Part shown: positions 35,259 through 46,300 of the stretch, piece after piece
Layout of the letters: the number at the start of each line of letters is the position of its first letter
Numbering within the stretch: position 1 is the stretch's first letter
Assembly: GCA_949318235.1 (NCBI GenBank)
Contig: OX439131.1
Span: 23,885,903-23,949,902 of the forward strand
DNA length: 64,000 bases
Source: Ecdyonurus torrentis
Taxonomy: Eukaryota; Arthropoda; Insecta; Ephemeroptera; Heptageniidae
Direction of reading: 5' to 3'
The notes under the pieces: generated by a model
The model's input: only the letters and a program-made list of their open reading frames with translations
Told to the model about the DNA's origin: nothing
Database searches by the model: none
Made by a program: the position numbers and the translations under genes

Positions 35259-35547
35259 AGTAGAGAGGGGTGGCAGGTTCTGTTCTAGATATGATAACAT
35301 GGTGTTCCTATGCTAATGCATGTTAAATTTTAAGGAGCCAAGGAGCCATTCTCCTGCCTACCTAACTGTATGGTAAAATATACATACAGAATGTAGTATA
35401 GCGTTTACAATAGGTTATAATATATTATATTATTATTGTATTTAGACTATCATATTTATAATATATATATATATATATATATATATAAATATATATATAT
35501 TAGTAATATATAATTAAGCAATATATAAACGAGATATTTATTTTATA

Positions 35548-36522
35548 TATTATTATGTGTATACGTTCTGTTAATGATGATTGTATATATTATTTTTCTT
35601 TTATTTAAGAATTACTAACGCTTGCTTATATACAATGAATATATACGCTTTGTAATATACTTGCTATACCTGGATATAGAAATGTCATATTATACAAAAT
35701 AAAGTTTCAGCATCATATATCGTGTATAATCATTCTCGCTGCGTCCGCATAATTATGTTTTCTCTTCTTGCTGTCGTATAAGAGAGTACTAGTAGTAATA
35801 CTTTTACTATCATTATGTTCTTCTTATATTTTAATTTTATTAGTGTTATAAAAGAAGATTACAAAGTATGCGTCGCTGTATTACCTATACGCATGATCTT
35901 ACATTAAAACAATATAATATAGAATATTCACACGACACAATCATTATAGTGTACAGTGTATTATATACATAATGTAATATCATATCCCACTTTTATATAT
36001 GGTATGGATATTGCTATGCCGCTGCATGTACGGTATATGAATAACATATAGCAATATAAAAATAAAATATTTAAAGTATATATTATGATGTGTATACGTT
36101 CTGTTAATTATGATATTGTATATAATGTTTTTCTTTAGATTAAGTATTATACTTACGTTGAGATACAATAACATTTTATACGAATTTTTCTTGCTATACC
36201 TATGCAGTTTAAATGTTAAATACAAGGGTACGTCTTGGTATCATATATTGCATTATACTCGTATATAATTTCTTATTGAGTCAGCATAATTTTATTTCTC
36301 TTCTTGCTGTCGTATTCCAGAATACTTTGTAATACTTTTTTATAATATATATGTACTCCTAATATTTACTTTTATTTGTGTGGGTTATAAAATGCCATCA
36401 AAATAGTAAGTGTCGCTATAATAACTATACATGATCTTAGTGAATTAAAAAAATATTTAGTAATATGCTGACAACACATTCACAATAATATAGTGTGCAG
36501 AATAAATTATGTTTCCCGACTA
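35548..36522. repeat. Two diverged tandem units of about 530 bp (A1, A2)
   Basis: A1 begins near 35548 and A2 near 36079. Shared landmarks in order are GTGTATACGTTCTGTTAAT, CTTGCTATACCT, TCTCTTCTTGCTGTCGTAT, GTAATACTTTT and CATGATCTTA. The mirror copies lie at about 45029-46005. A third partial copy of the GTCGTAT...GTAATACTT block is seen near 40179-40212. Non-coding. Confidence 0.75.
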
Positions 36523-36589
36523 TTTTTTATATAATAATTTTTCAGTGCTAAGTATATTTAAATACAAATGCATGTACAATATTTAATTG

Positions 36590-37930
36590 TTACTTTGTTA
36601 GAGAAAGAAGCATCATATATGTAACCACAGCATTATATTATATTAAAGCAAGGAGATCTCTCTCTCTCTCTCCTTCTATATCTCAGTGCATATTCTTATA
36701 TGCATATTATAAGAATATATTTTATAAGGATAATATACTACATATGTGATTTTTTTTCCATCGCTTGCATATCATTTTGTAGATTGAGTGCATTACCTAT
36801 AGCATTTTTGGTGTGTTTGTATATACAGTAACGTTATAGTTCTTCATTCTATTATACATATTTTAGTATAGTATTATAACTTTTGTATATATAAAAATTA
36901 TATTGTTTCAAGACAAAAATCAAATTTTGGTAATATTTTAAGAAGTTACCTCTAACTTTTTAGCACATTAAAATCATATAGACATGTAATATATAGACAC
37001 ATAAGATATACATTGTACATAGTTTAATATATCACTTAGGTTATATCTTGTAATACAATACAATATATATATATATATATATATATATATATATATATAT
37101 ATATATATATATATATATATATATATATATATATATACATACAGTAATAATTTATTTTTTTTTACTAAAAAGTTAAATGTAATGTCGTTTCATATACTGC
37201 AGTCATTTAGTAATCAGTAAAATATCAATCTTTTTTGGAGCTGCAGCTTTCTCTTATCTTAAGTTACAATCTCTCTCTCTCTCTCTCTAATTTAGTCTTC
37301 TTTCAACGCAAATTCTTTCTATACATTTTACTTATAAATTTTGTGATATTTTTTCCCGCGCGCTCGCATTATATTATAATGTATAGTGCAATATACCAAT
37401 ACTTATATAAATACGTGTATATTATATATTATACTTATTTTTTCATTATATATTGCATTTTACACTTTTTATAATACTTCAGTGTATTTATGTTTTTCAT
37501 GATAAGTAAAATCAAGTTTTGTTTATAAAATAAGTTAACAGTAACTTTGAATTTTATATTGCAAATTAAAATAATTTGAACATACGTTATACGCACATAA
37601 TAGATTGCAGTGTATAATATTATAATTCTTAATTTATATGTTTAGTTAATTGATTTGTGCTCAGAAAAAGAAGCATTATATATTATGTAACTGCAGCATT
37701 ATCTTATTATAGCACGATGCTCTCTCAATCTCTTTCTATCTCTCCCGCCGCAAGTTCTTCGTACTTCGTATACATAACGTATGTAATTTTTCTTTCTCGC
37801 ACTTGCATATTATAGCATAGTGCATGAGTGCAATACCCATAGTAGTTTAAATATTATTTTTTATTGTGTTCATTATTAAAAGTACACCTAAATCTTCATT
37901 ATGTTATACAAGTTTTACTGTAAATAATTA
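36590..37930. repeat. Three diverged units (B1-B3) of the left arm
   Basis: B1 (about 36600) and B3 (about 37664) share GAAGCAT(T/C)ATATAT, GTAAC(C/T)(A/G)CAGCATTAT, a CT-rich block, CTTGCATAT and GTGCATTACC/GTGCAATACC. B2 (about 37190-37420) is a weaker relative. They may be remote kin of the A units. The mirror copies lie at about 43631-44965. A (TA)n array at about 37062-37138 separates B1 and B2. Confidence 0.55.
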
Positions 37931-42660: not shown

Positions 42661-43502
42661 TCGACGGTCTCGCGGCTATTATATGTATCTCACAATCTCG
42701 CCGCGCCACACAAAATAGGTATCTCACAATCTTGCCGCGACACACAAAGTAGGTATCTGACTTCCTCGCGATGCGCACAATATAGGTATTAGAAAATCTC
42801 GCCATACGCACAAATTAGGTATCTCTATTTTACACAAAATAGGTATCTCACAGCCATAGAGAATTTTCTACATAAATAATTGAAATGTAAATATATTTTG
42901 TTTGTTAAAATGCTTTTAATACTTTTAAAAAATAAAAATCAATTAAAAAGTAAATATTTTTTATAGAATAAAATGTAATAATAATATATATTTTTTAAAT
43001 ATTTTACGCTACCTTTTTTTAGTAATGTCTTTTTACTTTAGTTTTACGAATAATTAATAGTAATTTTAAAATATATAAATTTTAATATATAGACCATTAG
43101 AAATTTGTTTTAAAAATTTATATTTTCAAACTTAAAAAAAAAAAAAAAATTATAATAATTTATTACTAATATTATAATCTATTATTTAATTTAAGGTTCT
43201 GTAAAATTACTAAAGAAATATTTTAAGTAAAATAAAAATAAGACATTTTCAATTATTAATGATATTTATTTTTAATTTAATTTGTCACATATTAAATTTT
43301 TTTAGCATGTTATATGGAAAATTACTCGCGAGATTGTCTGATGCCTAATTTGTGCGTACGGCGAGATTTTCTAATACCTATATTTTGCGCATCGCGAGGA
43401 AGTCAGATACCTACTTTGTGTGTCGCGGCGAGATTTCGAGATACCTATTTTGTGTGGCGCGGCGAGATTGTGAGATACATATAATAGCCGCGATACCGTC
43501 GA
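42661..43502. mobile_element. TA-flanked element with iterated long inverted termini, right-arm copy (842 bp)
   Basis: Inverted copy of 38280-39094 with the same TCGACGGT ends and TA flanks. It is longer mainly because of about 30 extra bases near 42989-43018 that the left copy lacks. Confidence 0.85.
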
Positions 43503-43504
43503 TA

Positions 43505-46300
43505 TATTATTTTATATATATATATATATATATATATATATATATATATATATATATATATATATATATAAATATATATATATATATATATATATATATA
43601 TATATATATATATATATATATATATATATATAATTATTTACAGTAAAACTTGTATAACATAATGAAGATTTAGGTGTACTTTTAATAATGAACACAATAA
43701 AAAATAATATTTAAACTACTATGGGTATTGCACTCATGCACTATGCTATAATATGCAAGTGCGAGAAAGAAAAATTACATACGTTATGTATACGAAGTAC
43801 GAAGAACTTGCGGCGGGAGAGATAGAAAGAGATTGAGAGAGCATCGTGCTATAATAAGATAATGCTGCAGTTACATAATATATAATGCTTCTTTTTCTGA
43901 GCACAAATCAATTAACTAAACATATAAATTAAGAATTATAATATTATACACTGCAATCTATTATGTGCGTATAACGTATGTTCAAATTATTTTAATTTGC
44001 AATATAAAATTCAAAGTTACTGTTAACTTATTTTATAAACAAAACTTGATTTTACTTATCATGAAAAACATAAATACACTGAAGTATTATAAAAAGTGTA
44101 AAATGCAATATATAATGAAAAAATAAGTATAATATATAATATACACGTATTTATATAAGTATTGGTATATTGCACTATACATTATAATATAATGCGAGCG
44201 CGCGGGAAAAAATATCACAAAATTTATAAGTAAAATGTATAGAAAGAATTTGCGTTGAAAGAAGACTAAATTAGAGAGAGAGAGAGAGAGATTGTAACTT
44301 AAGATAAGAGAAAGCTGCAGCTCCAAAAAAGATTGATATTTTACTGATTACTAAATGACTGCAGTATATGAAACGACATTACATTTAACTTTTTAGTAAA
44401 AAAAAATAAATTATTACTGTATGTATATATATATATATATATATATATATATATATATATATATATATATATATATATATATATATATTGTATTGTATTA
44501 CAAGATATAACCTAAGTGATATATTAAACTATGTACAATGTATATCTTATGTGTCTATATATTACATGTCTATATGATTTTAATGTGCTAAAAAGTTAGA
44601 GGTAACTTCTTAAAATATTACCAAAATTTGATTTTTGTCTTGAAACAATATAATTTTTATATATACAAAAGTTATAATACTATACTAAAATATGTATAAT
44701 AGAATGAAGAACTATAACGTTACTGTATATACAAACACACCAAAAATGCTATAGGTAATGCACTCAATCTACAAAATGATATGCAAGCGATGGAAAAAAA
44801 ATCACATATGTAGTATATTATCCTTATAAAATATATTCTTATAATATGCATATAAGAATATGCACTGAGATATAGAAGGAGAGAGAGAGAGAGATCTCCT
44901 TGCTTTAATATAATATAATGCTGTGGTTACATATATGATGCTTCTTTCTCTAACAAAGTAACAATTAAATATTGTACATGCATTTGTATTTAAATATACT
45001 TAGCACTGAAAAATTATTATATAAAAAATAGTCGGGAAACATAATTTATTCTGCACACTATATTATTGTGAATGTGTTGTCAGCATATTACTAAATATTT
45101 TTTTAATTCACTAAGATCATGTATAGTTATTATAGCGACACTTACTATTTTGATGGCATTTTATAACCCACACAAATAAAAGTAAATATTAGGAGTACAT
45201 ATATATTATAAAAAAGTATTACAAAGTATTCTGGAATACGACAGCAAGAAGAGAAATAAAATTATGCTGACTCAATAAGAAATTATATACGAGTATAATG
45301 CAATATATGATACCAAGACGTACCCTTGTATTTAACATTTAAACTGCATAGGTATAGCAAGAAAAATTCGTATAAAATGTTATTGTATCTCAACGTAAGT
45401 ATAATACTTAATCTAAAGAAAAACATTATATACAATATCATAATTAACAGAACGTATACACATCATAATATATACTTTAAATATTTTATTTTTATATTGC
45501 TATATGTTATTCATATACCGTACATGCAGCGGCATAGCAATATCCATACCATATATAAAAGTGGGATATGATATTACATTATGTATATAATACACTGTAC
45601 ACTATAATGATTGTGTCGTGTGAATATTCTATATTATATTGTTTTAATGTAAGATCATGCGTATAGGTAATACAGCGACGCATACTTTGTAATCTTCTTT
45701 TATAACACTAATAAAATTAAAATATAAGAAGAACATAATGATAGTAAAAGTATTACTACTAGTACTCTCTTATACGACAGCAAGAAGAGAAAACATAATT
45801 ATGCGGACGCAGCGAGAATGATTATACACGATATATGATGCTGAAACTTTATTTTGTATAATATGACATTTCTATATCCAGGTATAGCAAGTATATTACA
45901 AAGCGTATATATTCATTGTATATAAGCAAGCGTTAGTAATTCTTAAATAAAAGAAAAATAATATATACAATCATCATTAACAGAACGTATACACATAATA
46001 ATATATAAAATAAATATCTCGTTTATATATTGCTTAATTATATATTACTAATATATATATATTTATATATATATATATATATATATATATATATATATTA
46101 TAAATATGATAGTCTAAATACAATAATAATATAATATATTATAACCTATTGTAAACGCTATACTACATTCTGTATGTATATTTTACCATACAGTTAGGTA
46201 GGCAGGAGAATGGCTCCTTGGCTCCTTAAAATTTAACATGCATTAGCATAGGAACACCATGTTATCATATCTAGAACAGAACCTGCCACCCCTCTCTACT
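43505..46300. other. Outer part of the right arm
   Basis: Inverted copy of the outer left arm with (TA)n at about 43511-43632 and 44422-44487, B-type units at about 43631-44965 and A-type units at about 45029-46005. The last 120 bp match the left terminus exactly by eye. No gene. Confidence 0.8.

Follow-up and report, generated by a model that had tools for sequence, protein, structure and literature searches.

The palindrome at positions 35259-46300 of the window, a 64,000-nt stretch of the Ecdyonurus torrentis genome (contig OX439131.1, positions 23,885,903 to 23,949,902; G000:C10:23885903-23949902 in our numbering, in which loci are designated by contig), belongs to a transposable element (TE) family whose members are built as palindromes, with about a dozen loci. 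This element is very probably a gene-less palindromic derivative of the Polinton/Maverick class; it appears to have spread as a ready-made palindrome, probably with a helper, and its arms may be corrected in a snap-back stage.

The window palindrome and its ends

Self-alignment delimited two arms, 35259-40748 on the plus strand and 40773-46300 on the minus strand, which are mutual inverted copies. The sequence from 35249 to the midpoint was aligned with the reverse complement of the remainder up to 46310, giving 5,235 matched columns with 17 mismatches (4 of these outside the element) and 28 gap events with a total of 558 nt. In ten first-order Markov resamples of the window, the best inverted self-match was only 22-75 nt. 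The 11-kb near-perfect palindrome with these limits, proposed in an earlier note on this sequence, was thus borne out by the arm-to-arm alignment.

The element has the ends AGTAGAG...CTCTACT, and the palindrome stops at AGTAGAGAGGGG on both sides, where it is flanked by the target-site duplication (TSD) AATATG (35253-35258 and 46301-46306). Since it ends in this way, the structure points to a TE and not to a chromosomal inverted duplication. The frequency of a chance 6-nt match between random flank positions was 0.0018. In the excerpts available of a study of vertebrate Mavericks, the ends are given as (AGT)2 or (AG)3 with 6-bp TSDs, and these termini and TSD length agree in kind with the window element (PMC8097293). 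IS3EU, for which the part of the source consulted gives TA..TA termini with a 6-bp TSD (PMC10045372), was rejected since the termini here are AG..CT, and the Mutator and P superfamilies were rejected on ends or TSD.

A family of palindromes in the genome

The window's own 503-Mb assembly (117 contigs) was searched with two probes. The inner-arm probe (40300-40640) gave 25 matches, namely 12 inward-facing pairs and one single match, while the terminal 247 nt gave at least 44 matches (40 of 69 candidates were scored), most of them in inward-facing pairs 10-17 kb apart. The single inner-arm match, C12:37737401-37737738, has no inverted partner and is perhaps half a palindrome.

Half-against-half comparison of seven of the 12 loci, the window copy among them, showed every one to be a palindrome, with identities of 98.3% (C21), 99.1% (C83), 98.2% (C20) and 97.3% (C12), or piecewise 98.2 and 100% (C15) and 97.9-99.6% in three pieces (C4). 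Aligned pieces of these copies were 84-97% identical to the window arm, the part near the apex included. At C41 the comparison covered the outer ends alone, where 1,039 nt are inverted at 98.7%, and the stretch of interior examined holds a Gypsy-type reverse transcriptase frame; a Gypsy-type insertion would explain the 16-kb length of this locus. The earlier note described an unusual palindrome that persists without a spacer. The structure is indeed genuine, unusual and almost spacerless, but it is not a lone copy, belonging instead to a multi-copy TE family with TSDs.

An exact 6-bp TSD was found at nine of the ten family loci with both ends read. Six of the first seven loci carry one (AATATG, TACGTG, GGTGTA, GGATTA, CGCGCA, AACATA), as do three of four further loci (TAGACA, AATATG, AACATA), the right end of the fourth, C12:18011240, lying outside the stretch examined, so that this locus is absent from the count. 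C12:26943797 (C12 about 26941017-26958358) is the one palindrome that lacks a TSD although both its ends were read, and it is either a chromosome fold-back or an assembly fault.

Three end types occur in the family: AGTAGAGAGGGG in the window, C21, C4 and C12, one AGTAGAGGGG type in C20, C21b and C4b, and another in C83, C15 and C12c. By its arms, C20:25591765-25603272 is the nearest relative of the window copy (0.4-2.5% apart in three segments), yet it has another terminus, in both arms alike; an exchange of both ends together seems to have taken place.

Six sequence patterns were also run against a viral contig collection, which may omit the window's own genome; five had no match, and the sixth, a 20-mer, hit one viral contig of 48% GC, which was judged to be chance. 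One pattern had no match in a genome contig collection that may likewise omit this genome. A literature search over titles and abstract openings of open-licence papers returned no description of palindromic Polintons, which is no proof of absence from print.

Candidate helpers and PolB-bearing palindromes

A profile search for PF03175, a type-B DNA polymerase from the viral/organellar family, in which 91 of 152 candidates were scored, gave at least 105 matches in the same genome and none in 14 control genomes. Eleven terminal-repeat pairs lie 15.8-17.2 kb apart, namely C41 of the palindrome family and ten others, and all ten of the latter contain a PF03175 match between ends like those of the window copy. 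Arm nt 1-142 of the window element, that is, the left terminal repeat beginning with AGTAGAGAGGGG (35259-35400, plus strand; mirrored at 46159-46300, minus strand), match one end of the PolB-bearing pair C11:30275023-30292217 at 100% identity. The ends of three of the ten elements were compared and proved non-palindromic, matching at about 77% over about 656 nt (C8, C15) or 97% over 140 nt (C11). Four of the ten were tested for TSDs; two have exact 6-bp duplications, one lies in a CATA repeat and one has a pair that is one base off (AATGTG/AATATG).

In one helper, a cropped hmmscan of a 484-aa stretch from a 1,295-aa frame matched PF03175 at 91.7 bits, and the same frame also matched zinc-finger and endonuclease VII profiles. 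Pieces of two helper copies matched Pox_A32 at 26.1 bits (cut-off 22.8) and a phospholipase A2-like domain at 45 bits, as well as a partial rve at 30.1 bits, below the cut-off of 32.6, in a frame cut at the edge of the stretch examined. No polymerase match for the PolB frames came from searches of solved structures or from an NCBIfam scan. The ten elements of 15.8-17.2 kb are of Polinton/Maverick type and are likely to serve as helpers of the palindromes.

No PF03175 match among the 105 listed falls in the seven compared palindromes, window copy included, and a Pfam scan of 8 of the 45 arm open reading frames of at least 55 aa gave nothing above cut-off. Since no genes were recognised in the window element, we call it a Polinton-derived non-autonomous element and not a Polinton.

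Long inverted arms with internal repeats are also known from foldback elements such as Tetris and Galileo, as far as the available parts of the sources go (PMC4079207, PMC4168063, PMC3573991), so the window family might be a foldback element of another superfamily (Mutator, P) whose ends resemble those of Mavericks by coincidence. TSDs in those groups are 8-10 and 7-8 bp, however, against the 6 bp found here, and the outer 142 nt are identical to the end of a PolB-bearing pair, so we regard such an origin as most improbable.

A second set of palindromes carries the polymerase itself. Among the 105 PF03175 matches listed, at least five inverted pairs start 3.7-4.3 kb apart, at C4:12.60 Mb, C17:21.66 and 23.40 Mb, C21:14.29 Mb and C10:45.20 Mb, each arm holding a PolB frame. 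Each of the five loci forms an inverted repeat of at least about 3.17 kb over the stretch examined, with arms 99.9-100% identical, around an unmatched centre of about 0.7-1.3 kb that is minisatellite-like by eye. At every one of these loci the left-arm polymerase stretch scored 82.0-82.4 bits against PF03175. In the C4 element, the left half holds a single frame of at least 120 aa, which spans two pieces through the PolB region. Two elements were delimited, one of 15,589 bp at C4 (TSD ACGACC) and one of 14,439 bp at C21 (TSD GTTCAA), both of which start with AGTAGATATAATG. Because these two showed no DNA similarity to the outer 500 nt of the window element, the PolB palindromes are taken as another lineage.

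Arm identity within copies

Arm nt 60-760, 820-1700 and 4040-4840 were compared in the seven copies. Within copies, 19 of 16,047 sites differed between the arms, whereas copies differ from each other by 0-8.9%, the zero value belonging to the pair C83/C15, which is probably the product of one recent spread. Inner segments contributed 14 of the 19 within-copy differences (window 5, C4 7, C12 2). In the PolB palindromes, none of 15,452 sites differed between the arms of a locus, against 0-9 per about 3,070 between loci. In both groups arm identity was judged from difference counts alone and not from trees; the short-end tree, the first outer tree and the PolB-palindrome tree were distorted by TA runs, arm insertions or the spacer. 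In the tree of the inner segment the two arms of the window copy were not cleanly paired, as is expected from its sequence noise (see below).

With so little difference within copies relative to that between copies, the mutations that separate the copies must sit in both arms, so the arms have somehow been re-equalised. Insertions present in one arm only, namely the window insertion described below, one of about 1.24 kb in C4 and one of about 1.64 kb in C15, show that the arms do not always equalise after insertion, and for this reason we infer that resetting during replication is to be favoured.

Low within-copy divergence would also be expected if the arms were equalised after insertion by chromosomal arm-to-arm gene conversion, as in Y palindromes, and palindromes support conversion according to excerpts of one study (PMC7953838). 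Conversion might, however, have erased or spread some of the one-arm insertions that persist in the window copy, C4 and C15. Large heterologies can resist gene conversion. We consider conversion possible, though less likely than not, for this one step; it is compatible with the rest of the explanation by a helper-mobilised palindrome.

Differences between the window arms and sequence quality

The outer 2.67 kb of the window element (35259-37928) shows 0 substitutions between arms and 2 gaps, both within TA runs. The left arm alone carries a 161-bp insertion resembling a miniature inverted-repeat transposable element (37970-38130), with inverted ends of about 49 bp, in a TA tract. The right arm differs by a GGGA array (42295-42557) 231 nt longer than its mirror near 39208, a 31-nt insertion and another order of the apex units. 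Between 38291 and 40640, 7 substitutions and 23 gap events were counted; two of the substitutions lie beside the 31-nt insertion, four in a TA run, and one, at 40543, is clear.

In the same interval, 12 indels of 1-3 nt lie outside runs of at least 6, versus this one clear substitution. When the arms of C20 were used as reference, over 39240-40670 only, the left arm was the odd one at 16 events and the right arm at 6 (two at the segment ends, with the substitution at 40543 among the six), and 2 were mixed. The left arm was also the odd one at three differences in the ends of a nested element and at one in a hairpin near 39719. Many of the small differences look like local noise in the left inner arm, resembling uncorrected long-read sequence, and a claim of long independent divergence of the window arms would be wrong. 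The arm-specific accumulation of differences described in the earlier note is thus only partly borne out.

These small indels, mostly odd on the left, might suggest that the palindrome itself was created in sequencing or assembly, whether by a fold-back read, a missed adapter or gap filling, and inverted duplications are known to make nanopore reads fail, as stated in the part of the source available (PMC7229812). Reading a real palindrome is, however, difficult too, and the noise therefore favours neither view. Nor would an artefact stop at a terminal repeat flanked by a TSD, put the 161-bp insertion into a single arm, or turn up again, with flanks of their own, at the six other loci that were compared. 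This reading was lowered because other palindromic copies were found, and hardly any weight is left to it.

The apex and the centre

The apex consists of an array of 21-bp units GCTACCCGTTTAGTTTAAACG (40674-40769, plus strand) and its mirrored array (40773-40861, minus strand), in which one unit is 7 nt short. A 3-nt loop between the arms, as the earlier note had it, exists locally, where a 13-bp stem closes on GTT (40770-40772) at the axis. In the register of the arms, 53 bp pair without a break around a 24-nt spacer (40749-40772), of which GTT forms the last 3 nt; beyond this pairing, 14 nt are extra on the right.

The inner probes are 251 bp apart in the window copy and 615-732 bp apart in six relatives, whose centre holds, by eye, GC-rich inverted repeats. 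Since the relatives retain this larger centre, the 3-nt loop is peculiar to the window copy and the near-absence of a spacer looks secondary. At C20 the 21-bp units follow the order of the window left arm and then run on into the centre of the relatives; the tight apex is therefore most simply explained by a central deletion between the inverted 21-bp unit arrays. Such a deletion is a usual fate of palindromes.

Short interrupted inverted repeats at the axis resemble the junctions of origin-dependent inverted-repeat amplification (ODIRA) as described in excerpts of PMC10766183, and C12:26943797 is mirrored into its flanks. Each palindrome could accordingly be a separate local product of template switching at a short inverted repeat, starting from an asymmetric element already inserted there. 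Independent origins would give differing axes, whereas the six other compared copies have the same arms and a homologous centre. This shared centre argues against the ODIRA-like origin, except perhaps for C12:26943797, and makes it very unlikely for the family.

Proposed mechanism and points against it

Under the preferred explanation of a palindrome that moves with a helper, the founding palindrome would probably have arisen by fold-back copying at a short hairpin. A helper PolB would initiate copying from one or other of the two identical ends, the strand displaced by it would snap back into a hairpin one arm long, and mismatches between the arms would be corrected at this hairpin stage. The helper integrase would then insert the re-formed linear palindrome, which would move as a unit. 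The window copy would later have lost its centre by deletion between inverted 21-bp units. Mobilisation in trans is probable, and arm correction in the snap-back intermediate would account for the resemblance of the arms.

Several observations weigh against this explanation. The use of helpers is suggested by shared ends, no movement having been observed. Only four of the ten palindromes with both ends read (window, C21, C4, C12) carry the window terminus, and for the six with the two other AGTAGAGGGG types no PolB-bearing helper was identified, no search with those ends having been completed. The termini AGTAGAG are close to, but not exactly, (AGT)2 or (AG)3, and inside the ends the arms are only about 73% alike to two helpers over about 560 nt. 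When the 1,295-aa frame is run through hmmscan in full, PF03175 is missed and the endonuclease VII match appears instead, and no capsid gene was identified in the helper pieces scanned. Furthermore, C12:26943797 combines the lack of a TSD with a mirror that extends roughly 2.8 kb into both flanks, and the left inner arm of the window copy is noisy.

Other features of the window

Each arm contains two diverged modules, u1 of about 535 bp (35503-36036, plus strand; mirror 45515-46048) and u2, about 70% like u1 (36041-36557, plus strand; mirror 44994-45510). A nested element (38276-39098, plus strand; mirror 42657-43506) has its own inverted ends made of 33-35-bp tandem repeats; these two ends differ by several substitutions common to both arms. 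Scanning the window with Rfam (gathering threshold) and for tRNAs gave no matches.

A Gypsy-type retrotransposon lies at 12367-17569 of the window, with almost identical long terminal repeats of about 252 bp and a 1,452-aa open frame with protease, reverse transcriptase, RNase H and integrase. Several of the named relatives of this protein are from arthropods, and others are from a nematode, fish and oomycete.

Relation to known systems

Intact vertebrate Mavericks have terminal inverted repeats of 46-1,447 bp and seven or eight conserved genes, as given in the available part of PMC8097293. The window element shares with Polintons/Mavericks the 6-bp TSD and the inverted terminal repeats, and its AGT.. 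ends come close to theirs; elements with ends of the window type carry the PF03175 PolB, pieces of two of them matching an A32-type ATPase and part of an integrase. It differs in being a nearly full palindrome without recognisable genes.

Adenovirus symmetric recombinants are linear, protein-primed genomes that turned palindromic with two identical ends, as products of virus passage. A literature search found no paper on them. The window family, by contrast, is a set of genomic insertions present in multiple copies with TSDs.

Foldback elements (FB, Galileo, Tetris) are likewise non-coding, with very long inverted repeats that make up most of the element and with internal repeats, but their TSDs are 7-10 bp against 6 bp here, where the ends are Maverick-like, and the window arms of about 5.5 kb compare with up to about 1.26 kb in the accessible part of a Galileo survey. 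The inverted amplicons produced by ODIRA in yeast have similar junctions, at short interrupted inverted repeats, but are chromosomal amplicons and not transposable units, according to the same excerpts (PMC10766183).

More broadly, protein-primed Maverick-type elements may have evolved into obligate palindromes, comprising gene-less parasites and PolB-only forms, with snap-back replication resetting the arms each round; we advance this tentatively, leaning slightly against it.

Long perfect palindromes are considered genetically unstable. Here, by contrast, palindromes appear to be what transposes, and the two arms of a copy resemble each other far more closely than different copies do. They offer a natural multi-copy system in which to study how eukaryotic chromosomes tolerate palindromes and how protein-primed transposons replicate, and they suggest that Mavericks have gene-less parasites resembling the palindromic defective genomes of viruses. 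If snap-back replication does reset the arms each round, this would be a mobile palindrome whose symmetry is kept by its own replication cycle.

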